Shown: in pieces, positions 5,958 through 20,840 of the stretch
How the letters are laid out: the number at the start of each line of letters is the position of its first letter
Position numbering within the stretch: the first letter of the stretch is position 1
Assembly: GCA_947484175.1 (NCBI GenBank)
Contig: CANKOI010000032.1
Location: 1 to 42,094 of the forward strand
DNA length: 42,094 bases
DNA from: Deltaproteobacteria bacterium
Lineage (GTDB): Bacteria; Myxococcota_A; UBA796; SXON01
Reading direction: 5' to 3'
Notes under the pieces: generated by a model
Database searches by the model: none
Told to the model about the DNA's origin: nothing
What the model saw: only the letters and a program-made list of their open reading frames with translations
Program-made: the position numbers and the translations under genes

Positions 5958-7337
5958 CTAATTGCCTCCGAAGAACTTTCTGAACAAGCCCCCCCCCGGC
6001 TCCTTTGGGGGTGGCTTCTCGCGCTCGAGCCGTTTCATCCACGCAAGCGCGTCGGGGTTGGACGGTCGAATGCGGAGGGCCTTCACGAACGCTTCGCGCG
6101 CAGCGTCTATATCGCCGCGTGCTTGGTGCGCCTGCCCCAGCAGCACCCAGGCCGTGTCTACCTTCTCGTTCGTTTCCAACGTCGCTGTCAACCGGGCCAG
6201 GCCCTCCGCGGCCAGCTTCGGGTCGCGGGTCTGATTGATCTTGAAGGTGGTGAACGCGGCGTAGGCAGCAAATTCTGGCTGATCAGGGACGGTCGAGGCG
6301 CAGCGCGTAAACGTTTCGTGCGCCGGACCGAGTCGGCCCGCGGAGAAGTCGAGCAGGGCTCGCTTAAAATCGCTTTCGGCGTCGAGGATGATGCGCACCG
6401 TATCCATCGCCAACTCGTCCTCGGACTTCTCGCCGTGGACTTCTCGCTTGATGTAGGCCTCGCGCCGCGTATCGTCGCTGAGCACCTCCCAGGCGTCACG
6501 GACTCGGTTGAAGAACTCCTCGGCCATCGAGCGAAGCTCGTCGGGGCCGGCCAAGAATAGGTCGGGGTGGAGCTCGCGCGCGAGGGCGACGTAGGCGCGC
6601 CGGAGGGTGTCGGGGGGGTCTTGCCAGGTGACGCCGAGGGTCTCGAAGTGATTTTTGGACTCTCGAAGGCGTTGGAGGACGGGACCGAAGCGCACGGTGG
6701 CGGCGTCCGGCGCCGGGGCCGCCGGTCGGGGTGGGGGAGGGGGCAGCCCCAGCCCTTCGCTGATCATGGCAGCGATGTCGGTGTCGTCGCTCGCGGTGGA
6801 GCGTGGACGCTTGACGCTGCGCACCTCGTAGGTTGCGCTCTCGATCCCGACATCCGAGAGGGCGCCGACCGCGAAACCCACCCGAAGCCACCGCTCGGCG
6901 GCGTCCGGGCCTCCGGGAGCAAAGGAGCCCACTTCTTCGGTGGTGCGGGTGCCGTCGAGCCCCATCAGGTATTCGGCCAGTTGGGGCTCGATGGGGAGCC
7001 GCCCGAACCACGCGGCGCCACAGCCCACGACTTTTAGGTAGCTGTTCGCGCTTGGTCCGGGCGACCCCGCGGCGAGGATCGCCTCCGACAGGTCTGCGGG
7101 ATCGCGCTGCGGCGGCGCCACATCGTCACGCCACTGCATCTCGCCACCTCGCTCGCGGAGGCACCCGGTCAGGCGCGCGAGGGCATCCTCGGCCCCGCTG
7201 TCGAGGTTCGACTGCACCATCACCACCGCGCCAGCCTCAAAGTAGACGACCCGCTGCCCTCGGGCGTCGCTCCACTCCAACGCGCCGGTGCTGCCCGCCA
7301 AGGCCCGGCTGCAGATGGAGGCGGCGAGTGCGTTCAT
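5958..7337 (-). CDS. DUF4388 / DnaJ-like J-domain / TPR fusion protein
   Basis: 459 residues with three readable parts. Residues 1-60 resemble DUF4388 (PATAN-type) domains: ALEWSDARGQRVVYFEAGAVVMV. Residues about 227-300 form a J domain (HFETLGV, RRAYVALARELHPDLF with the HPD tripeptide, then AWEVLSDDTRREAY). Residues about 330-440 are TPR-like (GRLGPAHETFTRCAS, WVLLGQAHQARGDIDAAREAF). The J domain with intact HPD should stimulate a DnaK-type ATPase, while TPRs and DUF4388 suggest a scaffold or signalling role. This architecture is one I associate with Myxococcota. A proline-rich linker (about 205-217) precedes the J domain. It is the first gene of a minus-strand cluster and diverges from ssb. 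Confidence 0.85.
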   Translation of the reverse strand: MNALAASICSRALAGSTGALEWSDARGQRVVYFEAGAVVMVQSNLDSGAEDALARLTGCLRERGGEMQWRDDVAPPQRDPADLSEAILAAGSPGPSANSYLKVVGCGAAWFGRLPIEPQLAEYLMGLDGTRTTEEVGSFAPGGPDAAERWLRVGFAVGALSDVGIESATYEVRSVKRPRSTASDDTDIAAMISEGLGLPPPPPRPAAPAPDAATVRFGPVLQRLRESKNHFETLGVTWQDPPDTLRRAYVALARELHPDLFLAGPDELRSMAEEFFNRVRDAWEVLSDDTRREAYIKREVHGEKSEDELAMDTVRIILDAESDFKRALLDFSAGRLGPAHETFTRCASTVPDQPEFAAYAAFTTFKINQTRDPKLAAEGLARLTATLETNEKVDTAWVLLGQAHQARGDIDAAREAFVKALRIRPSNPDALAWMKRLEREKPPPKEPGGGLFRKFFGGN

Positions 7338-7483: not shown

Positions 7484-8026
7484 ATGGTCAACAAGGTCAT
7501 TCTGGTGGGCAATCTGGGGCAGGACCCCGAACTTCGCAACACGGCGGGCGGGCAGGCGGTCGGCTCCCTCCGCATCGCCACCACGGAGAAGTTCAAGGAC
7601 CGTGAGGGGGCGCTCCAGGAGCGTACCGAGTGGCACACCGTGGTGGTGTGGGGCCGCGACGCGGAGAATGTGCACAAGTACTGCAAGAAGGGTCGGCAGC
7701 TGTACATCGAGGGCCGTCTGCAAACGCGGAAATGGCAGGACAAGGAGGGGAAGGATCGGTACTCCACCGAGGTGGTGGCCGACGTCGTGCGCTTCCTCGG
7801 CACCGGCCAGGGCGGAGCCGGGGGTGGCGAGGAAGGCGGTGGCGGCTACGGCGGCCGTGGCGGCGGCGGCGGCGGCAGCGGCGGCGGCAGCGGCGGCGGC
7901 AGCGGCGGCGGCTACGGCGGTGGCGGCAGCCGAGGCGGCGGCGGTGGAGGCGGCGGTGGCCGCAGCGGCGGTGGTGGCGGTGACGAAGCGCCGCCGTACA
8001 AGGACGACGAAGAAATCCCGTTCTAG
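7484..8026 (+). CDS. ssb: Single-stranded DNA-binding protein
   Basis: 180 residues starting at an ATG preceded by GAGGAG. The N-terminal OB fold is classical ([58 protein letters not shown]). Residues about 107-165 are a glycine/serine-rich linker, and the protein ends in the acidic tip DDEEIPF, which recruits replication and repair partners. It binds ssDNA during replication, recombination and repair. The linker is encoded by near-tandem GGC codons. The gene is monocistronic-looking, diverging from the J-domain protein and converging with a small lipoprotein-like gene. Confidence 0.97.
7846..7980 (+). repeat. GGC-rich low-complexity repeat inside ssb
   Basis: Imperfect tandem GGCGGC(A/G)GC units encode the Gly/Ser linker of Ssb. 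The tract could vary in length by slippage without breaking the frame when it changes by multiples of three. Confidence 0.8.
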
Positions 8027-9165: not shown

Positions 9166-10359
9166 TCAGGCGCCGAACGACCGAACGAAAAGGTCGTCGA
9201 TGGCGGCCCGGCCCTTCTCGGACAGGTGGCGGGTGCCGGTGCCGCAGAACGACTCGCTGCCCAGCAGGGGGACTTCGGGCACCCACTCGTCGTGGCTCCA
9301 CCGGTACCAGCCCTCTTTTTCCTGATCGTACACCCACAAGCGCTTGTTCCACATTCGGGCCAGCTCCACGGACCAGCCCGTGCCCCCCGTCACGGTGCCG
9401 TCTTCCTGGATCGTGCCCACCACCAGCACCACCTGGGCGCTGCGCACCTGATGCCAAAGGCTCTGGAGCACGCGCCGGATCATGGCGCTTCCGCTGTACG
9501 ACCGCCGCAGGCGGCGAGAAACGTAGGCCAACGAAACGTCGCCCTCGGCCAACTCCCGCTCGGTGAGCGGGTGGGCGCCTCGGGTACGTGCCTGCACATG
9601 CCCCGTGAAGGTGAAGTTCACCTCCCGCACGCCGTGGCGCTCGGCCGCAGCGCCGAACGCCTCCTCGGTGCCGCCGGCGCCGCCCGAGTACAGCACCGCC
9701 GCCCCGGTTGCTTCGTCGTCGTTCGTTCCGAGCGGCTCGGCGGAGGCGAGGCTGCCTCGGGGCACGCGCACCGGTTCGTGTGCCGGGCCCCGTACGGAGT
9801 TGAGCCAGAGCTCGCCCGCCCGGTAGCTGAGCGACAGCACCACGTTCCCGACGGGCTCTTCGTCCGTTTCCGGAGTCCACGCGAACCACAGCGCGAGCTT
9901 GTGCGCCAAGGCGAGCTCCCGCAACGCGGGCAACGCCGAAGCGTCGGGCGCCTGGCCGTCGATCACCACCAGCCGGGGGTGGAACTCCACGACATCCCCG
10001 AGGGTCTTCAGGAGCGAACGAAGCCGCGCCTCGTCCACCACTCCCCCGCCGGTGCTGTGAATCATGCGCCGGCGTTCCACGCCGTGCATCGCCGCCGCTC
10101 TCGCCTCGCCGTTCTCTCCGTACATGCTCGACAGCGTGCTGTCGTACGCGTCGCGCACGGCGAGCACCGACTCCCGCACGGCCACATGGAGCACCAGGTC
10201 GCCCGCGAGGAGCCGCTCCAGTGCGGTGTAGATGAGGAGTTGGCTCTTCCCGATGCCGGCGGGCGACACGAGGGCGCCCACCTCGCCAGCGCGGAGTCCG
10301 CCGGGGAGAATCGCTTGCAGCGCGCGAACGGCTGCGCCCTCCTGCCCGGCCTTCGCCAC
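9166..10359 (-). CDS. P-loop (RecA/KaiC-like) ATPase fused to a SLOG-like Rossmann domain
   Basis: 397 residues from a GTG. The N-terminal half has a Walker A-type loop SPAGIGKS (residues 32-39, with Ser in place of the first Gly) and a Walker B-type strand RLVVIDG near 127-133, in a RecA/RepA/KaiC-like order. From about residue 218 a second domain begins with VLYSGGAGGTEEAFG and later has VVLVVGTIQEDGTVTGGTGW followed by SVELARMWNKRLWVYD. This is the glycine-rich nucleotide pocket and helix-strand order of the SLOG/LOG superfamily. SLOG domains bind or cleave nucleotides and often act as sensors in bacterial conflict systems. The gene lies 7 bp after the EF-G stop and may share its transcript. 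No partner effector is adjacent. The domain calls are by eye. Confidence 0.65.
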   Translation of the reverse strand: MAKAGQEGAAVRALQAILPGGLRAGEVGALVSPAGIGKSQLLIYTALERLLAGDLVLHVAVRESVLAVRDAYDSTLSSMYGENGEARAAAMHGVERRRMIHSTGGGVVDEARLRSLLKTLGDVVEFHPRLVVIDGQAPDASALPALRELALAHKLALWFAWTPETDEEPVGNVVLSLSYRAGELWLNSVRGPAHEPVRVPRGSLASAEPLGTNDDEATGAAVLYSGGAGGTEEAFGAAAERHGVREVNFTFTGHVQARTRGAHPLTERELAEGDVSLAYVSRRLRRSYSGSAMIRRVLQSLWHQVRSAQVVLVVGTIQEDGTVTGGTGWSVELARMWNKRLWVYDQEKEGWYRWSHDEWVPEVPLLGSESFCGTGTRHLSEKGRAAIDDLFVRSFGA

Positions 10360-10366
10360 GGGCGCC

Positions 10367-12469
10367 CTACTTCTCTTTCCGCTCGGCCTGGTACTTCTTC
10401 ATCAGGTCTTCCGTCACGTTGCCGGGAGCCCTCTCGTAGCGCGCGAACTCCATGGAGAACTCGGCCTTGCCCTGTGTTGCTGAGCGCAAAGTGGTGGAGT
10501 AGCCGAACATCTCGGAGAGCGGCACCTCCGCGTCAATCTGCGAGAAGTGGTCGGCCTCGCTGCTCCCTACGATGATGCCCCGGCGCTGCATGATGGTGCC
10601 CACCATCGCCCCGTGGAACTCGGCGGGCCCTTCGATGCCCACCTTCATGATGGGCTCGAGCACGATGGGCTTGGCCTTGTGGTACGCCTCCTTGAAGCCG
10701 CCGATCGCGGCGAGCTGGAAGGCGATGTCCGACGAGTCCACCTGATGCGAGGAGCCGTCGTTGATGCCGCACTTCAGCCCCACGACGTTGGCGCCGATGA
10801 GCTCTCCCTTCTCCAGGCACTTCTTGAAACCCTTGTCGCACGAGGAGATGAACTCGCGGGGAATCGAGCCACCGACGATGTCGTCGATGAACTCGTAGCC
10901 GCCCTCGGCGGGCTCCAGCCACCCAGCCACGCGCCCGAACTGACCGGAGCCGCCGGTCTGCTTCTTGTGGGTGTAGTTGAAGTCGGCGCGCTGGCTGATG
11001 GTCTCGCGGTAGGCCACCCGCGGGGGTGATGTGAGCACTTCGCAGGCGTACTCCCGCTTCATGCGCTCCACGTAGACTTCCAAGTGGAGCTCGCCCATGC
11101 CGCTGATGATCGTGTCGCCCGTCTCCGGATCGGCCGCCACGCGGAACGTCGGGTCTTCCTTGCTGAAGCGGCGCAGCGCCTTGGACATGTTCGCCTGGCC
11201 CGCCGCCGTCTTCGGCTTGATCGTGAGGTCGATCACCGCCGCGGGAACGTGCATCGAGGTCATCGCGAGCTCGCGTGAGCCGTCCGTAAATGTGTCACCC
11301 GAGAAGCAGTCGACGCCGAAGATCACGCAGATGTCGCCGGCGTAGGTGTCGTCGATCTCCTGCATCTCGTTGGAGTGCATCCGGCCGAGGCGGCCGACCT
11401 TGATCTTCTGGCGCCCGCGGGTGTTGATGATGGTGTCACCCTTCTTCATCGTCCCGGAGTAGATGCGCAGGTAGGTGAGCTGGCCGTACCGACCGTCTTC
11501 CAGCTTGAACGCGTAGGCGGCGAGGGTGCCCGCGGGGTCGCAGGGCATCACCACCTTCTCGTCGTTCTTGCCGGTGTCGACCGCCTCGTTCACCACTTCC
11601 ATGGGGTTCGGCAGGTACTCGATCACGCCATCGAGCAGCTTCTGAACGCCCTTGTTCTTGTAGGCAGAGCCGCAGAACACCGGCACGAGCTTCAACGCGA
11701 GGGTGGCGGTGCGAATCGCGGCCTTCAGCGTGGGCACCTCCACGCGCTCTTCGAGGATCTGCTCCATCAGCTCGTCGGAGTACATCGACACGTTGTCGAG
11801 CAGTTCGTCCCGGTAGGTCTGGGCGTCGTCGGCCATGTCGGCCGGGATGTCCGCGATGGTGATGTTCTCGCCGTTGTCGCCCTCGAAGTACCAAGCCTTC
11901 ATCTCCACGAGGTCCACGATCCCCGCGTGCTTTTCTTCGAGCCCGATGGGAAGCTGAAGCATCACGGCGTTGTGGCCGAGCTTCTCTTTGAGCTGGCCAC
12001 GCACGCGAACCGGGTTGGCGCCTTGACGGTCGCACTTGTTCACGAACGCGAGGCGCGGCACGTTGTACCGGCGCATCTGGCGGTCGACGGTGAGAGACTG
12101 GGACTGCACGCCAGCCACGGCGCAGAGCACGAGCACCGCGCCGTCGAGCACCCGGAGCGCCCGCTCCACTTCAATGGTGAAGTCCACGTGGCCCGGCGTG
12201 TCGATGATGTTGATCACGTGCTCGGCGTAGGACTCCTTGATCGCGCCGTTCCACGTGCAGTGCGTGGCCGCGCTCTGAATCGTGATCCCGCGCTCGCGCT
12301 CGAGCTCCATCGAGTCCATGGTGGCGCCGACGCCGTCCTTGCCCTTGACTTCGTGGATCGCGTGGATCATGCCGGTGTAGTAGAGGATGCGCTCCGTGAG
12401 CGTCGTCTTCCCTGAGTCGATGTGGGCGCTGATGCCGATGTTGCGGATGATCTTCAGGTCGGTGTGCAC
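10367..12469 (-). CDS. fusA: Elongation factor G, mitochondrial EFG1-like (spdEFG1) type
   Basis: 700 residues from the GTG at 12469, which follows a GGAG. The frame is open to 12820, but that extension is proline- and glycine-rich shadow. G1 is [15 protein letters not shown] (residues 15-29), G3 [16 protein letters not shown], and G4 [10 protein letters not shown], followed by domains II-V with the usual order and length. Key segments ([45 protein letters not shown]) match what I know of mitochondrial EFG1 and of the spirochaete/planctomycete/delta EF-G class rather than ordinary EF-G with AHIDAGKTT. It should be the GTP-driven translocase. The genome may hold a second EF-G for ribosome recycling. 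No rpsL, rpsG or tuf is adjacent. Confidence 0.95.
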
Positions 12470-13281: not shown

Positions 13282-14253
13282 TCAGCCGTTGCGCAGCGCC
13301 GTGAGCGCTCGCCGCACGAAAACTGCCGCCATCTGGCGGCGCCATGCCGCGCCCCCGTGGACACTGTCCTGGGGGCGCGTCTGTTTGTGCGCTAACGCCG
13401 CGATCTCCAGCACGGCCGCATCGTCGAGGGGCCGCCCGAGAAACGCCTCGAGCCCCCGGAGCGGCTTCGGCTGTGGACTGGCGGCGCCGATGACGATCTC
13501 GAGGCGCGTCGCGGTGTCGCCCGCCCACTCGCCGCACACGGCCACGCCCAACTGGGGAAAATCGATGCTGTCGCGCGTCCGGAGCTTTTGGTAGCTCCCG
13601 CGGAAACCGGCGCCGGGCCGCGGTACCACCACATCGGTGAGCAGCTCGGAGGGCTCGATGGCGAGGTGATCCATGCCGTTGAACCTGTAGAGATCACGGA
13701 TCGCCACCTCTCGTGCGCCCGAAGGGCCGAGCAGGTGGAGCTTCGCGTCGAGCGCCAACAGCACGGGAACGGTGTCACTCGACTGGGAGGCCACGCAGGT
13801 TTTCGGGCCTCCGATGACGTGACACCACGTGCCCTCTGCCTTCAGGCAATACCCGAGGGCCTGCCGCCACGACTCCGTCTGGTTGTAGTAGAGGCAGCGG
13901 GTGTCGAGGAGGATGTTGCCGCCCAGCGTGGCCATGGCGCGAATCTGGGGGCTGGCCACCAGCGCGGCGGCGGTGGCCAGCGGGCCGAGCAGGCGCTGCA
14001 CGTCCGGGTGCTCGGCGAGGTCGGCCAGCCGCGTGGCGGCGCCGATCTTCACGCTGTCGTCGCGGAGCTCCACGCCGCCCGCGATCCCCGAGAGCCCCAC
14101 CAGCGTGCGCGGCTTGAAAATCCCATGCTTCACGTTGGGGAGCAGGTCCGTGCCGCCGGCCACGTAGCGGGCGTCGGGGTGGGCGCTCCACAGCTCCAAG
14201 GCGTGCGCCCAGGAGGTGGCGTGGCGGTAGGTGAAGCCGTCCATGCGCAGCAT
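13282..14253 (-). CDS. FAD subunit of a molybdenum hydroxylase, 4-hydroxybenzoyl-CoA reductase beta-like
   Basis: 323 residues. It has the FAD-binding fold of CO-dehydrogenase/xanthine-dehydrogenase medium subunits (YVAGGTDLLPNVKHG near 30-44, SPQIRAMATLGGNILLDTRC near 101-120) and the usual C-terminal domain. Between the two lies a cysteine-bearing insert, with Cys at 120, 136, 144 and 153. I recall this spacing (16, 8, 9) from the extra [4Fe-4S] cluster of the 4-hydroxybenzoyl-CoA reductase beta subunit (HcrB), where it allows electron input from ferredoxin. The ATG lies 1 bp after the stop of the fused iron-sulfur/molybdopterin gene, so the two form an operon. Function as an aromatic-CoA dehydroxylase is plausible, but other substrates are possible. 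Confidence 0.85.
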   Translation of the reverse strand: MLRMDGFTYRHATSWAHALELWSAHPDARYVAGGTDLLPNVKHGIFKPRTLVGLSGIAGGVELRDDSVKIGAATRLADLAEHPDVQRLLGPLATAAALVASPQIRAMATLGGNILLDTRCLYYNQTESWRQALGYCLKAEGTWCHVIGGPKTCVASQSSDTVPVLLALDAKLHLLGPSGAREVAIRDLYRFNGMDHLAIEPSELLTDVVVPRPGAGFRGSYQKLRTRDSIDFPQLGVAVCGEWAGDTATRLEIVIGAASPQPKPLRGLEAFLGRPLDDAAVLEIAALAHKQTRPQDSVHGGAAWRRQMAAVFVRRALTALRNG

Positions 14254-14254
14254 G

Positions 14255-17047
14255 TCAGGCCCTCGCCTCCCGGATCGCGGCGAGCACGCGATCCGGCGTG
14301 AAGGGGATGCGGCGCAGCCGTACGCCGACGGCGTCGGCGATGGCGTTGGCGATCGCCGGGATGATGGGGTGCAGGGGGCCTTCGCCGGCTTCCTTCGCCC
14401 CGTACGGGCCGCCGGGGTCGATGGACTCCACGATGCTCGCCAAGAAGTCGGGGCATTCCTTCGAGGTGGGAATGCGGTAGTCGAGCAGGTTCGGGCCGGT
14501 GTGGAGCCCGCGTTCGTCGAAGGTGTGGGCCTCCATGATCGCTTCGGCGTAGCCCATGTACACGCTCCCCTCGATCTGTCCCTCGACGATCTGGGGGTTC
14601 AGCGCCCGCCCGCAGTCGTGCGCCGCCCACACCCGCTCCACCCGCACGATCCCCGTCTCCTCGTCGACACTCACCTCGCACACGTGCGCCGTGGCCGAGT
14701 AGGCGGGCGACGCCCCGATGGTGCCCCCGCGGTAGTCGCCGCCCACCTTGCGCGTGCGGTAGCCGCCGACGGCGCTCAGGGGGGTGCCGGCTGCCGCCTC
14801 GGCGAGGATCAGTGCATCACGCGTGGTCACGCGTCGCCCTGCGTCTTCGCTGTCCACCACCGCCCCAAAAGTGATGCGGACCCGCTCGACCGGCAGCTCC
14901 CACTTGGCCGCCACCGCCGCCTTCATCTTGGCCCCGAGGTCGGCCCCCGCCTCCTGCGCCGCGATTCCGCACATGAAGGTCACGCGGCTGGAGTACGACC
15001 CCAAATCCACCGGGGTGAGCTCGGTGTCTCCCGACACCACGGTGATGTCGTCGGGCGCGATGCCGGTCTCCTCGGAGATGACGTAGGCGAGCATCCCGTC
15101 GCTGCCCTGGCCGATGTCGTTCGCTCCGCAGAAGATGGTGATCTTGCCGCTACGATCGGCCCGGAGGAGCACGCCGGACTGCGGCATGTCGTTGGGGTAG
15201 ATCGGGTAGGCGGTGCCGGAAATGTACATCGAGGTGGCCACGCCGAGGCCGCGCCCCCGCCCAAGTTTGCCCCGGCGGGACTTCCACCCGCTCGCAAGCT
15301 CCACCGCGTCGAGGCACGCGAGCGCCCCGGACGACGTGACCAGCTGCCCGTTCACCGTTCGCTCTCCGGCGCCGACCACATTGCGCCTACGCATCTCCAG
15401 CGGGTCGAGGCCAAGGCGGTCGGCCAGCTCGTCCAGAGCGCACTCAAACGCGAAGCGCGGTTGCACGCTGCCGTGCCCCCGCTTGGGGCCGCAGCACGGC
15501 TTGTTCGTGTACACCCGCCGCGACCGAAACCGGTAACTCTCGAAGCCCACCGGCCCCGTGAGGAGCTGGCCTGCGTAGTAGGTCGTGACGAGGCCGAAGC
15601 TGTGGTACGCCCCGCCGTCGATGAGGATGTCGCTCTCCACGGCGGTGATCCGCCCGTCTTTCGTTCCCGCCACCTTGAACGCCATGTCCATCGGGTGGCG
15701 CCCGCGGTGGGCGTAGAACACCTCTTCGCGGGTGTAGAGGATTTTGACGGGGCGCCCCGCTTTTCGCGCCAGCACCGCCACACAAAACTCCAAATCAAAG
15801 GGCTCGGATTTTCCGCCGAACGCGCCGCCGAGCGCGGGTTGGATCACCCGAACGTCCTCCCCCCGCAGCCCGAGCACCTTGGCCAACTCGCGGTGCAAAT
15901 AGTGGGACACTTGGGTGGCCGACCAGACGGTGAGCCCGCCATCCTGCGACCAGCGCCCGATCGCGCAGTGGGGCTCGATCGCCGCGTGGTTGCTGCCCTC
16001 GTAGAACCATCGCCCCTCCACCACTTCGTCGGCCGCGGCGAAACCGGCGGGCACATCTCCGAAGCTGAGGTCTACGTCCTTACAAACGTTGGATTCCCAG
16101 GGGCGCCCCTTCCAGTCGAGCTCGTGCACCAGCGGGGCGCCCGGAGCCACGGCCGCGGCGGCATCGGCCACGATCGGCAGCAGCTCGTACTCCACGCGGA
16201 TGAGCGCGAGGGCGCGGTTCGCCGTTTCTTCGTCCACGGCGGCCACGGCGGCCACGCCTTCGCCCACGTACCGCACCTTGCCCACGGCGAGCGCGGTTTC
16301 GTCCGGCGTCCACGGAATGATGCAATACGCAGTCGGGACGTCCGCGCCCGTCATCGTGGCAAAAACACCAGGAAGGGCGTCGGCCGCGGACGTATCGATG
16401 GACAGGATTCGTGCGTGCGCGTGCGGGGAGCGGAGGATTTTGCCGTGCGCCATGCGCGGCAGTTGGATGTCGTCGGTGTACAGCGTTTCGCCGGTCGCTT
16501 TGGCGATGCTGTCGGCCTTCCGCCCGCGTGCGCCAACGACCAGAAAGCCCGGCGCTGGCTCCCCGTACCGCACGGGCACCTGCCGCTCACACCCGGCCGC
16601 CGCGAGGCGCACGGCCTCGAATATTTTGGTGTAGCCCGTGCATCGACACAAGTTTCCGGACAGGGCTTCGCGGATTTCTCCGTCTGTCGGTTGGGGGCAC
16701 CGCGAGAGCAGCGCTTTGGCCGACAGAATCATCCCCGGCTGGCAGAACCCGCATTGGAGCGCGCCGCACACGTCGAAGGCGCGTTGCACGGGGTCGGGAC
16801 CGTCCGGGCCGGCCACGCCCTCGATGGTGGTGACCTCCCCGCGCACCGCGTGCGCCAGTGTGAGGCAGGACAAGGTGGGCTTGCCGTCGACCAGCACGGT
16901 ACAGGCTCCACAGTCGCCCTTGTCGCAGCCCTGTTTGGTGCCGGTGAGCCCCGCGGCGTAGCGCAGCGCCTCCAGCAGGGTCCACGCCTCGGGCACGGCC
17001 ACGCGCACGCCTTCGCCGTTCACCCGCAGATCGAGCAGCGCCTTCAT
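14255..17047 (-). CDS. Fused [2Fe-2S] and molybdopterin subunits of a xanthine-oxidase-family enzyme, 4-HBCR-like
   Basis: 930 residues. Residues 1-150 are the small iron-sulfur subunit: plant-type cluster cysteines 41, 46, 49 and 61, and second-cluster cysteines 99, 102, 134 and 136 (CGFCQPGM, NLCRCTGY). After a short linker, residues about 165-930 are the molybdopterin subunit (GETLYTDDIQLPRMAHGKIL, GGAFGGKSEPFDLEF, GSDGMLAYVISEETG), with the active-site region GPYGAKEAGEG holding the expected Glu. In the characterised 4-HBCR these are two proteins (HcrC and HcrA); here they are one. With the downstream FAD subunit the complex should move electrons through FeS, FAD and an additional cluster. 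Only 33 bp separate it from the divergent FGE-like gene. No molybdenum-cofactor chaperone gene is next to it. Confidence 0.88.
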   Translation of the reverse strand: MKALLDLRVNGEGVRVAVPEAWTLLEALRYAAGLTGTKQGCDKGDCGACTVLVDGKPTLSCLTLAHAVRGEVTTIEGVAGPDGPDPVQRAFDVCGALQCGFCQPGMILSAKALLSRCPQPTDGEIREALSGNLCRCTGYTKIFEAVRLAAAGCERQVPVRYGEPAPGFLVVGARGRKADSIAKATGETLYTDDIQLPRMAHGKILRSPHAHARILSIDTSAADALPGVFATMTGADVPTAYCIIPWTPDETALAVGKVRYVGEGVAAVAAVDEETANRALALIRVEYELLPIVADAAAAVAPGAPLVHELDWKGRPWESNVCKDVDLSFGDVPAGFAAADEVVEGRWFYEGSNHAAIEPHCAIGRWSQDGGLTVWSATQVSHYLHRELAKVLGLRGEDVRVIQPALGGAFGGKSEPFDLEFCVAVLARKAGRPVKILYTREEVFYAHRGRHPMDMAFKVAGTKDGRITAVESDILIDGGAYHSFGLVTTYYAGQLLTGPVGFESYRFRSRRVYTNKPCCGPKRGHGSVQPRFAFECALDELADRLGLDPLEMRRRNVVGAGERTVNGQLVTSSGALACLDAVELASGWKSRRGKLGRGRGLGVATSMYISGTAYPIYPNDMPQSGVLLRADRSGKITIFCGANDIGQGSDGMLAYVISEETGIAPDDITVVSGDTELTPVDLGSYSSRVTFMCGIAAQEAGADLGAKMKAAVAAKWELPVERVRITFGAVVDSEDAGRRVTTRDALILAEAAAGTPLSAVGGYRTRKVGGDYRGGTIGASPAYSATAHVCEVSVDEETGIVRVERVWAAHDCGRALNPQIVEGQIEGSVYMGYAEAIMEAHTFDERGLHTGPNLLDYRIPTSKECPDFLASIVESIDPGGPYGAKEAGEGPLHPIIPAIANAIADAVGVRLRRIPFTPDRVLAAIREARA

Positions 17048-17842: not shown

Positions 17843-18771
17843 TGTTCTGGCTGCTTGCTTGTAACGGGGGCCCTTCGCCCGCCGAGGTCGCGGCGGTGGA
17901 GCGGGGCGTGGGCGAGTTCGCGGGGATGCTGCACATCCCGGCGGCGGAGGTGAACTCGGGGCCTCGCGGGGCGGTCCGGCTTCCGCCTCCGCGCTCGCGT
18001 CCGCTCGCGCTGCCGACGTTTGTTTGCACCCCGTCGGAGGTGGCGGGCGCCGCCTGCCCGGGGCTCGCCCACGACCCGCTCGCTGCGCGGGTGGTGCGCG
18101 TGTCGGGCTTTTGGATCGATGAAACCGAGGTCAGCCGCAACGCCTACGGCCTCTTTTTGGGGGCCACCGGCTACCGCCCTCCCCACGTGGAAGAGCCTTG
18201 GGCGGAAGCGGACTGGAACTGGGACGGCCCCACCCCGCCCGCGGGCACCGAGAGTCACCCCGTGGTGCTCACCAGCTGGTACGACGCCCGCGAATACTGT
18301 GCGTGGCGCGGCGGTCGCCTGCCCACCGAAGCGGAGTGGCACCTCGCCGCCCTCGGCCCCGCCGCGTCGGAAACGGCGTTCCCGTGGGGCCCCCACTACG
18401 CGGAGGGCCGCATGAACCGCGGCATGCTCGACGCTCCCAACTACGACGAGACCGACGGCTGGCTCACGACCTCGCCGGTGGGCACCTTCCCCAAAGGTGC
18501 GAGCCGCTACGGCCTCTTGGACGCCTACGGCAACGCCTGGGAGTGGGTCGACACCCTGCGTATGCGGAGCTGGGACGAGGTGCCGTTCGCCGACCCCGCC
18601 ACCCAGCTCAACCCCACGACTGCGTCGCTCGGCCTCTACGCGGCCGCGCGGGGGTTCAGCTACTTCGCCGACCCCCGCCCCAACCTCGCGATGGACTTCA
18701 ACGCCTTCCCCGTGGAGCTGCGCCGCAAGACCAGCGGTTTTCGCTGCGCACGGTCGGAGGTGGGCGCGTGA
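17839..18771 (+). CDS. FGE/SUMF1-like lipoprotein
   Basis: 310 residues from the ATG at 17839, overlapping the preceding stop by 4 bp. The N terminus MMFWLLACNGG is a very short lipoprotein signal with the box LLAC. The FGE-like fold begins near residue 85 (VVRVSGFWIDETEVSRNAYGLFL), continues with SHPVVLTSWYDAREYCAWRG, GRLPTEAEWHLAA and YGLLDAYGNAWEWVD, and ends TSGFRCAR. The copper-cysteine pattern is absent (ARGFSYFADPRPNL). As the second FGE-like protein in a row, and lipid-anchored, it probably works at the cell envelope with its neighbour. The next gene begins at a GTGA overlap. Confidence 0.83.
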   Translation: MMFWLLACNGGPSPAEVAAVERGVGEFAGMLHIPAAEVNSGPRGAVRLPPPRSRPLALPTFVCTPSEVAGAACPGLAHDPLAARVVRVSGFWIDETEVSRNAYGLFLGATGYRPPHVEEPWAEADWNWDGPTPPAGTESHPVVLTSWYDAREYCAWRGGRLPTEAEWHLAALGPAASETAFPWGPHYAEGRMNRGMLDAPNYDETDGWLTTSPVGTFPKGASRYGLLDAYGNAWEWVDTLRMRSWDEVPFADPATQLNPTTASLGLYAAARGFSYFADPRPNLAMDFNAFPVELRRKTSGFRCARSEVGA

Positions 18772-20840
18772 AGGGAGAGTCGGCGAGGTGGGTAGGGGTG
18801 CTCGGTGCGGCGGGCCTCACGTTCGCGGCGTGGTGGGGCTGGGCGGGCACGCGCCCCGAGTCGTTGGGGCCGGGGTGGGCCGCGGGAGCGCCACCGGTCG
18901 AGTTGGCGACGGCGGCGTTGGCCGGGCCGCTGCGGAGCGTTCCGTGGGCGGTGGAGCTGCGGGGCCTGCAGGCGGCTCAGGCCCCTGAGCCGCTGGTGGT
19001 GGGCGACAGCGTACGGATCACGGCCACCCTCCCCGACGGCGGCTCCCTGATGGTGCGGGCGGGCCGCAGCGGCGGCATCGCGCCGCCGCGGGCGGGCGGC
19101 GGCCCGCTGCCGCCCCCCGGCGGGGGGCCTCAGCCGCCGCCCGGCGGCGGCGCGTCGGGGCCGCCCGGCCCCGGGCCGGGGGGCGGGCGCGGTCCGGGCC
19201 CCGGTCCGGGCCCCGGTCCGGGCCCCGGCCCTGGCGGCGCCCAGGCCACCGGCGATGGCGTGCTTTTTGACCGCGGCCCCGCCGGTGCGGTGCGGGGCGT
19301 GGGCGGCTTCGCCTGCACGCCCCTGCCTCTGCCCTCGGGCGCCCTCGACGCCACGCTGCGCATCACCGCGACCGGCGTGGACATCGTCACCGCGGGTGGG
19401 TCCTCCACCTGCACGGGCGGCCGGCTCGCGGGGCCGTGGGTGCTGCGGCCCGGCGTGGAGCGGGTGCGGGTGCACACCGTCGAGATGCTCGGGCCGAAGG
19501 CCACGCCGTCGGCATCGGGGGCGGTGCCGTGGCTGCGCAGCCGGCTCGCTGGCGCGCTCGCGTGGGTCGTGGGGGGAGCGGCCGGTCTCCTCGCTGCGCG
19601 GCGAAAGTCGTGGGGGGTTCCGCTCTTGCCGATGGCGCTCTCCCCCCTCCTCACCCTGATTCCCGCCGAGCGCTGGTTGGAGTCGGTGCGCCTCCTGTCC
19701 TTTCCGGAGGCGCTGGTTCCGCTGGTTTTCCCCGGTATCGTCACCCTGCTGCTCGGTGCCCTCGCGCTGGCGCGGCACCTTCCGCTGCGGCTGGCGCTGG
19801 TGGGCAGCTCGCTCCCGGCGCTCTCGCTCCTGGCGTGCAGCCTTCGCTTCCCGGATGCCCCCGGCTGGGCGCTCCTCGCCGCGGCGCTGGTGCCGCTGAC
19901 CGGCCTGTTCTACGCGAATGTGCATCAGGTGCGTGCCGTAGGCCTGTGGTCGTGGGGTGCTTTGGCCCTCGCCGGCCTGATGGTGGAGGGCGGGCTGCGG
20001 CACACCCGGGCGGGGTCTACCTGGGTGCACACGGCCGGCTACGATCGCGCTGCCACCGAGTTCCGCGAGCTGCTGGAGCTGCGGGCGTACCGCGAGTACC
20101 CCTCCGAAGGGTTCCCGGTAAAGCCCCCCGAGCCGCGCGCAGGAGTGCGGCGGATCGTCGCGCTCGGCGGGTCGAGCACCGGCGGCGCCTACCAGATGGA
20201 CGACATCGACCTGTTCTGGCCCAAGGCGATGGAGTCGGCGCTGGCCGATCCGGGGTGGGAGGTGGTGAACCAAGGGGTGGGCGGGTGGAACACGCTGCAC
20301 ATCCGCCTCTACGCGGAGAGCCAGCTGGAGCGCCTCGCGCCCGACCTGTTGGTGCTCTACGTGGGTCACAACGACATTTTCTCGACCGGTTTCGCCACGC
20401 ACAAGCAGCTGCTCGCGCAGTACCAGCAGCCGGCGAACGCCACCCTCAGCCGCACCTTGGCGGGGCTCCACGGCATTCGGAGCTATGTGGGCTTTTCGTT
20501 TCTGCTCAAAAGCTGGCGGAGCGAGGCCGCAGTGGCCGTACCGCTCCCGGATGCCCGCGAGAACCTGAGCCTGCTCCTCGACCTCGCCAAAAAACGGAAC
20601 ACCCGCGTGTTGTTGATGACCGAAGGCCTGAACCCCGACCCCGCGCCCATGCGGCCCTACGCGGCACTCCTGCAGGAGCTCGCCGACGCGCATGGGGCTC
20701 GTGCGCTCGATGCCGCCGCGATGTTCGTGGCCGCCGGGGATCCCGACGACTTCCTCGATGACTGCCACCTCACGGTGAAGGGGCATCGGCGCCTCGCCGG
20801 GTGGGCGCTCGACGATCTGCGCACGGCCGGTTGGTTGTGA
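18768..20840 (+). CDS. Membrane-anchored SGNH/GDSL-type hydrolase
   Basis: 690 residues from the GTG at 18768, which overlaps the upstream TGA; the longer frame is a shadow. An N-terminal hydrophobic segment leads to a beta-rich region interrupted by a Gly/Pro tract (about residues 105-160). A block of about six membrane helices (residues about 255-415) precedes the SGNH domain. Its motifs are LGGSSTGG (Ser469/470), NQGVGGWNT, YVGHND (Asn535) and DDCHLTVKGH (Asp664/665, His667), i.e. a full catalytic set. Such proteins deacylate or acylate extracytoplasmic glycans or lipids; the substrate here is unknown. It is the third gene of an overlapping chain, followed 10 bp later by a small unknown gene. 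Confidence 0.82.
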   Translation: MKGESARWVGVLGAAGLTFAAWWGWAGTRPESLGPGWAAGAPPVELATAALAGPLRSVPWAVELRGLQAAQAPEPLVVGDSVRITATLPDGGSLMVRAGRSGGIAPPRAGGGPLPPPGGGPQPPPGGGASGPPGPGPGGGRGPGPGPGPGPGPGPGGAQATGDGVLFDRGPAGAVRGVGGFACTPLPLPSGALDATLRITATGVDIVTAGGSSTCTGGRLAGPWVLRPGVERVRVHTVEMLGPKATPSASGAVPWLRSRLAGALAWVVGGAAGLLAARRKSWGVPLLPMALSPLLTLIPAERWLESVRLLSFPEALVPLVFPGIVTLLLGALALARHLPLRLALVGSSLPALSLLACSLRFPDAPGWALLAAALVPLTGLFYANVHQVRAVGLWSWGALALAGLMVEGGLRHTRAGSTWVHTAGYDRAATEFRELLELRAYREYPSEGFPVKPPEPRAGVRRIVALGGSSTGGAYQMDDIDLFWPKAMESALADPGWEVVNQGVGGWNTLHIRLYAESQLERLAPDLLVLYVGHNDIFSTGFATHKQLLAQYQQPANATLSRTLAGLHGIRSYVGFSFLLKSWRSEAAVAVPLPDARENLSLLLDLAKKRNTRVLLMTEGLNPDPAPMRPYAALLQELADAHGARALDAAAMFVAAGDPDDFLDDCHLTVKGHRRLAGWALDDLRTAGWL
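19191..19226 (+). repeat. Three perfect 12-bp tandem repeats in a G/C-only tract
   Basis: The unit GGTCCGGGCCCC is repeated three times without mismatch and encodes part of a Gly-Pro run in the SGNH hydrolase. It sits in a nearly A/T-free tract (about 19080-19240) that could form strong hairpins or quadruplexes and is prone to slippage and sequencing error. Confidence 0.85.

Follow-up and report, generated by a model that had tools for sequence, protein, structure and literature searches.

A P-loop–SLOG fusion gene behind a second elongation factor G

The window, by which we mean the entire 42,094-nucleotide stretch analyzed (contig C32 of a 4.37-Mb genome that is 94.7% complete), harbors on its minus strand, at 9166–10359, a gene for a 397-residue protein in which a RecA-fold P-loop module is followed by a SLOG module. 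The gene, which starts with a GTG codon, had been proposed as an ORF in a first-pass annotation made from the DNA letters. It is a real gene, read from the minus strand, and the same fusion is present in the translated loci of 42 further genomes. Comparison with a relative that shares 85% amino-acid identity yielded a dN of 0.10 and a dS of 0.81, a ratio of 0.12, and the gene is therefore under purifying selection.

The encoded protein consists of an N-terminal RecA/KaiC/DnaB-like P-loop module (residues 1–205; 9745–10359), a linker predicted to be flexible (residues 210–218; 9706–9732) and a C-terminal SLOG module (residues 220–397; 9169–9702), all on the minus strand. In the AlphaFold2 model, which was computed from 71 aligned rows, the mean pLDDT is 91.5, and values below 50 over at least three residues occur only in the linker. 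The pTM of the full-length model is 0.68, and the folds of the modules, not their mutual arrangement, were taken from it. The motifs quoted in the first-pass annotation could all be located in the protein, with SPAGIGKS at residues 32–39, LVVIDG at 130–135, VLYSGGAGGTEE at 222–233, TVTGGTGW ending at residue 329 and ELARMWNKRLWVYD at 332–345.

The ORF of a second elongation factor G (EF-G), of the subfamily spdEFG1, precedes the fused gene on the same strand (10367–12457, minus strand, with the true start slightly upstream and uncertain). It ends at 10367, and the ORF coordinates thus confirm the spacing of 7 bp given earlier for the two genes. The genome encodes two EF-Gs, and the other one lies in the str operon, between the genes for ribosomal protein S7 and EF-Tu and with those for S12 and the RNA polymerase β′ subunit adjoining. 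A three-residue KDG insertion is described, in excerpts of PMC3150367, as the mark of spdEFG1, a subfamily found in spirochaetes, planctomycetes and delta-proteobacteria and related to mitochondrial EFG1. The window EF-G contains this insertion in switch I, by both length and sequence, whereas the str copy lacks it; the spacing between the anchors is 17 in all 46 rows in which both anchors were found, compared with 14 in the str copy, and K-D-G or a close variant is present in 91 of the 93 F, S and X rows of the EF-G alignment. The window EF-G is spdEFG1, not the housekeeping copy. The spdEFG groups, according to the excerpted text of PMC4342817, gave rise to mitochondrial EFG1 and EFG2, which are subfunctionalized for translocation and recycling. 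As side observations, the fusion at locus L002 adjoins an EF-G that is 83% identical to the window copy, and the genome of locus L213 (G021:C14) carries two spdEFG1 copies, with a P-loop gene behind just one of them.

Elsewhere in the window, a molybdenum hydroxylase is encoded at 13282–17047 (minus strand), where the gene for the FAD-binding subunit adjoins an ORF in which the 2Fe-2S part is fused to the molybdopterin-binding part. The minus-strand ORF at 5958–7337 encodes a protein with an N-terminal part to which no domain was assigned, a DnaJ domain at its center and TPR repeats at its C terminus, and the plus-strand ORF at 7484–8026 encodes what we take, by sequence, to be an SSB-like protein with a long Gly/Ser-rich tail and an acidic tip. 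The most extreme 2-kb step in composition lies at 18001–20000 (GC 75.6%, AT skew −0.24).

Folds and conserved residues of the two modules

Foldseek comparison of the P-loop half of the model returned, among the 50 PDB matches listed, RAD51C and other RAD51 relatives, T4 gp41, T7 gp4, KaiC and RadA, with E values of 1.7e-9 to 5.4e-8. These matches, together with the Walker motifs, support the RecA/KaiC-like character originally assigned to this half, and KaiC, with which a structural comparison had been proposed, is itself among the RecA-type folds that the model matches. PDB sequence searches returned RepA for the window protein (E 0.037) and T4 gp41 for separate P-loop genes (E 2.5e-4), and Pfam models remained below their gathering scores, with AAA_25 (PF13481) at 23 versus 27 bits for the window protein and KaiC (PF06745) at 20.6 versus 26.6 bits for the protein of locus L054. 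In the Walker A motif SPAGIGKS (10243–10266, minus strand), G35, G37 and K38 do not vary across all 43 fusions, and the GxGK[ST] core is likewise found in all 15 separate P-loop genes. The Walker B motif LVVIDG (9955–9972, minus strand) contains D134, which is conserved in 42 of the 43 fusions and replaced by E in one. As modeled, the P-loop half is a RecA-type fold that possesses both Walker A and the Walker B aspartate. Residue E227 of T4 gp41, which is the residue changed to Q in PDB entry 8gao according to the entry title, was aligned with the profile of the separate P-loop genes, in which its column is D in 13 of 15. Six of the 43 fusions have D or E in this column, 28 have an acid one residue later, and 34 have one at either position. 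Because the Walker motifs are kept and the canonical catalytic glutamate column is poorly kept in the fusions, the sequences suggest that ATP binding by the module is likely and that hydrolysis is uncertain.

The C-terminal half contains a Rossmannoid core, an SGGxxG(D/E) signature after strand 1 and a GGTxxxxE helix. Its first SLOG motif, YSGGAGGTEE (residues 224–233; 9661–9690, minus strand), includes E232, and the second, GGTGWSVE (residues 325–332; 9364–9387, minus strand), ends in E332. These two glutamates, together with G226, G230, R286, D320 and GGTGW at 325–329, are invariant in all 43 fusions, and E17, R71 and E117, the equivalents of E232, R286 and E332, are present in 31 of 31 rows of alignment A5. 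Mean identity among the fusions is 0.58 in the SLOG half compared with 0.34 in the P-loop half. Charged residues that never vary, at the site where they are expected, make a putative enzyme or tight binder more likely than an inactive domain.

Relationships of this half to characterized families are distant. The profile PHROG 768, named "DprA-like," matched the window protein with an E value of 1.5e-6 and two separate SLOG relatives with E values of 4e-9 and 0.0012, and one separate relative folded on its own gave a pLDDT of 92.8. Among the Foldseek matches listed for the SLOG model, the sole PDB fold of high probability was 3imk (probability 0.97, E 0.094, TM 0.45–0.51), titled a putative molybdenum carrier, which we take to be a SLOG protein of the cpYpsA family (PF12694); no match fell below an E value of 0.03, and the others listed were mostly low-probability dehydrogenases, a generic Rossmann signal. 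A PDB sequence search with the SLOG half returned just two unrelated matches at E 0.4, and Pfam and NCBIfam searches with the single fused sequence gave sub-threshold matches or none. The curated SLOG family YAcAr (PF10686) scored 13.8–16.9 bits against a cut-off of 28.2 (E 0.0055–0.053) for the window protein and its relatives, and cpYpsA was unmatched by the window protein at E values up to 10 and by its relatives at E values up to 1. Profile–profile comparison (hhalign) of the SLOG family plus seven phage relatives with four DprA sequences gave a probability of 82.5 (E 9.9e-6), which equals in strength the link between DprA and cpYpsA (probability 82.9, E 9.1e-6); the controls, namely the P-loop module, the EF-G G domain, an oxidoreductase and reversed DprA, gave E values of 0.089 or worse. 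Leaving out the phage rows makes the DprA link weak (probability 12, E 0.0024, with controls at 0.049 or worse), and the probability for cpYpsA is 5 without the phage rows and 45 with them. The DprA and cpYpsA rows used were confirmed by Pfam. Collectively, the PHROG match, the 3imk fold, hhalign and the motifs support the C-terminal half as a divergent SLOG domain that is remotely related to known ones. The SLOG-like assignment made at first thus stands as remote kinship, and no Pfam SLOG model reaches its cut-off.

SLOG-half relatives were also detected in 44 of 50,697 phage records, many of them from large phages, at identities of 22.8–31.5% (for the 40 listed of the 44 records), and a search of 72,556 plasmid records with one SLOG query returned no match. 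The PHROG 768 proteins, which are from large and crAss-like phages, have SGGA, GGT(G/A)W, R, D and GxG(S/T) in common with the SLOG half; among the seven phage rows aligned, the position at which the fused family has its E is occupied by GAD in six and GSD in one, and three of the seven have Q at the position of E332. In a crAss-like phage, one SLOG domain (L183:6001-6525) is embedded in a 13-kb coding sequence, which contains in-frame stops by table 11 and is therefore probably recoded. Another, in Klebsiella phage Pylas, is covered by a feature whose annotation reads virion RNA polymerase, and in Agrobacterium phage Atu_ph07 (L184:2621-5558) a SLOG gene is located two genes after an NAD synthetase gene. 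No P-loop module was seen beside the SLOG domain in the three phage regions examined. Viral SLOG domains are proposed, in excerpts of PMC9503650, to act on ADP-ribose derivatives, and because of this proposal an NAD/ADP-ribose-type ligand is our leading guess for the SLOG module.

Distribution of the two halves and linkage to spdEFG1

The window protein has matches in 157 of 377 genomes of the phylum. Profiles of the individual halves matched the P-loop half in 143 and the SLOG half in 126 of these 377 genomes, with both in 116, the P-loop half only in 27 and the SLOG half only in 10; these counts are lower bounds, since the best seven or nine candidates per genome were scored, and some of the single-half matches are partial or at contig edges (e.g., in G290, G201 and G247). 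A scan of 84,980 species, for which only the window protein supplied the short query peptides, found four close relatives. Sister lineages encode the halves in two separate genes, of which the P-loop gene (∼229 residues) is located behind spdEFG1 and the SLOG gene (∼182 residues) elsewhere, where no conserved neighbor or common operon was found in the loci compared. The separate P-loop proteins end at or near LDPRTLLLVRS and the separate SLOG proteins start shortly before LYSGA, which places these ends on the two sides of the fusion linker.

Phylogenetic trees group the fusions. A single branch splits them from the other rows in both the P-loop tree (56 rows, support 100) and the SLOG tree (58 rows, support 98), which contain 13 and 15 separate rows, respectively, and leave out L174–L176. 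In the EF-G tree (96 rows), all 38 of the 38 fusion-linked EF-Gs fall in one clade with support 96; the tree omits the short rows L241 and L036 and three fused loci without EF-G, and its X rows were chosen from genomes that have no P-loop gene or have it elsewhere. The same clade includes five rows in which no adjacent P-loop gene was seen. Two of these (L242 and L243) are from genomes that carry the fusion elsewhere, two (L205 and L210) are from genomes without a P-loop gene, and the fifth (L214) has 135 bp of downstream sequence and comes from a genome without a P-loop match. A single fusion event would explain these trees most simply. Separate genes are found in both other branches of the part of the EF-G tree that bears P-loop genes, one of which is represented by a single separate gene (L174), and the separate state is therefore probably ancestral.

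Where the halves are not linked, they still tend to occur together. In 297 genomes, which remained after 80 with a fused or unresolved P-loop gene were left out, both halves are present in 38, the P-loop half only in 25, the SLOG half only in 10 and neither in 224 (Fisher p 3.9e-22, kinship ignored); the 63 genomes with a separate P-loop gene were picked out manually on the basis of ORF length and family. When kinship was allowed for, a sign test on six independent pairs gave a median p of 0.25. With so few independent pairs, the fusion is better evidence that the halves work together.

The P-loop half is closely tied to spdEFG1. In a sample of 140 genomes of the phylum, spdEFG1 is present in 85 and the P-loop half in 48, and all 48 of the latter have spdEFG1 (Fisher p 2.6e-14, kinship ignored). 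We called spdEFG1 from a listed match with at least 59% identity to the window copy, a rule that may miss partial copies in other genomes; other EF-Gs, among the matches listed, are at most 49% identical to it. The P-loop half is located within 300 nt downstream of spdEFG1 on the same strand in 45 of the 48 genomes, and the three exceptions are from one genus that has both the fusion and spdEFG1, apart from each other. In longer loci, EF-G precedes 39 of 42 fused genes (38 of 41, plus L053) and 15 of 15 separate P-loop genes, with L001 and L095, which represent one genome, counted once. Three more P-loop genes lie behind EF-G (L174–L176); L176 runs into a contig edge, and it is therefore less certain to be a separate gene. 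A survey of neighbors in 77 loci, based on a crude gene call, found the P-loop or SLOG half in 69 and EF-G in 55, and the next most common neighbor in 12. The adjacency to EF-G, noted at first in a single genome, is thus considerably strengthened.

The converse does not hold, as 37 of the 85 genomes with spdEFG1 lack the P-loop half. We searched 40 loci for a decayed copy, comprising 36 from the 37 genomes without the P-loop half (not G047), 3 from genomes with the fusion elsewhere and 1 with a second spdEFG1 copy, and found none that was convincing behind spdEFG1; more than 0.8 kb of downstream sequence was available in 31 of the 36 loci, and less than 0.4 kb in 6 of the 40. The best candidate, an ORF at L235, is on the opposite strand (E 0.0074, 11 bits). 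Given these genomes and the lack of a convincing remnant, the P-loop half is not generally required for spdEFG1 function.

In the split-type genomes, a gene for initiation factor IF-1 lies ∼2–3 kb upstream of spdEFG1, and it is the sole IF-1 detected in seven of the eight genomes examined, none being found in G353; this gene thus does not look like the extra IF-1 paralogue that had been expected in the cluster. The order IF-1, hexapeptide transferase, formyltransferase, spdEFG1, P-loop gene was observed in L077, L080, L084, L091 and L093 (e.g., L091:627-6516). With these genes ahead of spdEFG1, the separate P-loop gene resides in a translation-factor neighborhood. In the window genome, IF-1 is encoded on another contig. 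A gene for a TerB-domain protein (Pfam TerB, E 2.8e-15 in L091) is found near the P-loop gene in 12 split-type loci (L076–L083, L085, L086, L091 and L094), downstream of it and on the opposite strand in the loci compared.

Possible functions and comparison with known systems

The fused ATPase-fold and SLOG protein beside spdEFG1 is a hint that protein synthesis may be controlled in a way not yet described, and it is plausible, as the first-pass annotation suggested, that nucleotide sensing and the state of translation might be linked. Our best explanation, which we hold tentatively, is that the fused gene product is a dedicated partner of spdEFG1 in which an ATP-binding module and a nucleotide-binding SLOG module would control the translocase. 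The protein would be made together with spdEFG1 from the adjacent genes and would act either on spdEFG1 or on the ribosome with which spdEFG1 works. The RecA-fold module of the protein would bind ATP, probably as an oligomer, with hydrolysis perhaps low in the fused form. The SLOG module would bind a small nucleotide, possibly an NAD/ADP-ribose derivative or a modified nucleotide, and would probably cleave it at the base–ribose bond; the state of this site could then be passed to the ATP-binding module and hence to the translocase. This reading is supported by the placement of the gene, the KDG insertion of its neighbor, the IF-1 context, the fusion boundaries, the co-occurrence of the unlinked halves, and the invariant SGGAxG(x)E, R and GGTGWxxE. 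A strict two-part machine is at odds with the genomes that have the P-loop half and no SLOG half (27 of 143), with those that show the converse (10 of 126, some of these single halves being contig-edge fragments) and with those that have spdEFG1 and no P-loop half (37 of 85). The more specific form of this idea, a translocase-specific, nucleotide-gated switch in which a RecA-fold ATP binder dedicated to spdEFG1 is controlled by a SLOG protein that processes or senses nucleotides of the NAD/ADP-ribose type or modified ones, the two being fused in one clade, we regard as doubtful.

The SLOG half might instead be an ordinary nucleotide-processing enzyme, either cleaving base–ribose bonds as LOG and PpnN do or clearing ADP-ribose derivatives, with the P-loop half serving to tether or dose it near translation and no signaling to EF-G. 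The better conservation of the SLOG half, its invariant E232, R286 and E332, the genomes with SLOG and no P-loop half (of which at least G290 reflects a contig-edge fragment) and the phage relative two genes after an NAD synthetase gene are consistent with such an enzyme; however, it is the P-loop half, not SLOG, that is tied to spdEFG1, and the P-loop half occurs without SLOG in 27 of 143 genomes. We hold this explanation to be rather unlikely. Simple read-through from a highly expressed EF-G gene into a functionally unrelated gene would fit the 37 genomes that have spdEFG1 and no P-loop half, but no other neighbor is nearly as widely kept in the loci read and the placement persists in both the fused and the separate states, and we consider it unlikely.

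DprA acts as a mediator for RecA, and a RecA/DnaB-like ATPase joined to a DprA-like domain could accordingly be a recombination or single-stranded DNA mediator, its position next to EF-G being due to chance or dosage. The nearest folds of the P-loop half among the matches listed (RAD51C, T4 gp41, KaiC and RadA), the full name of PHROG 768, "DprA-like DNA recombination-mediator," and the hhalign probability to DprA of 82 with phage rows, which falls to 12 without them, bear on this possibility. It is made distinctly improbable by the widely kept linkage to a translation factor, by the presence of the sole IF-1 detected nearby in the split genomes and by the column of T4 gp41 E227, which is acidic in most separate genes and in few fusions, although 28 of the 43 fusions have an acid at the next residue. 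Least probable of all is an anti-phage or conflict system in which SLOG would sense an infection signal and the ATPase would shut down translation at EF-G. A precedent exists in the SLOG-bearing ThsA of the Thoeris system, which is activated by cyclic ADP-ribose isomers (excerpts of PMC9503650), and the phage SLOG relatives could be countermeasures. PADLOC, however, matched no family at E values up to 10, no effector domain was recognized, the plasmid search with one SLOG query was empty, and one fusion kept at a fixed location across a clade is not the turnover of an island. The hint of a conflict system in the first-pass annotation is therefore not supported.

We know of no earlier SLOG domain tied to translation elongation and of no earlier accessory factor specific to the spdEFG1/mtEFG1 lineage; if the partner reading is true, the fused protein would be the first of each. 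A domain that figures, in the literature as excerpted, mainly in immunity and cytokinin chemistry would then be placed in core translation. The bacteria that use spdEFG1 are little studied, and nothing that we found accounts for its regulation; a widely kept gene behind it, and a fusion that names a second partner, make the question accessible to simple tests of binding and activity.

Both folds of the protein are known, and it is their combination and tie to spdEFG1 that we did not meet in the literature examined, as far as the excerpts extend. Searches for SLOG together with KaiC found no paper in the collection searched, and in the one paper found for SLOG together with EF-G the latter is mentioned only in a reference title; the view in the first-pass annotation that this domain order is undescribed is not contradicted by these searches, nor, among the matches listed, by broader ones. 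With KaiC-, RadA-, RAD51C- and DnaB-type ATPases the P-loop half has the fold, Walker A, Walker B and the strand of the catalytic carboxylate in common; unlike them, it is a single small module below Pfam cut-offs, is located behind spdEFG1 and does not keep the canonical catalytic glutamate position in the fusions. The C-terminal half shares SGGAxG(D/E), GGTxxxxE and the Rossmannoid core with the SLOG superfamily members DprA/Smf (PF02481), cpYpsA and YAcAr, but it stands apart as a subfamily in which the middle part is longer and a W-rich hairpin is present. LOG-type phosphoribohydrolases carry the motif PGGxGTxxE, which the GGTGWxxE of the SLOG half resembles, and their reaction, in which the base is freed from a nucleotide 5′-monophosphate, is a putative activity of the latter. 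Thoeris ThsA, a SIR2–SLOG protein in the excerpted account, similarly joins SLOG to another module, but neither SIR2 nor TIR was recognized in the fused protein and no defense context was found. Finally, excerpts of the literature on spdEFG1 and mtEFG1 (PMC3150367, PMC4342817) mention no comparable accessory gene, and the EF-G that precedes the fused gene shares with these translocases their KDG insertion.
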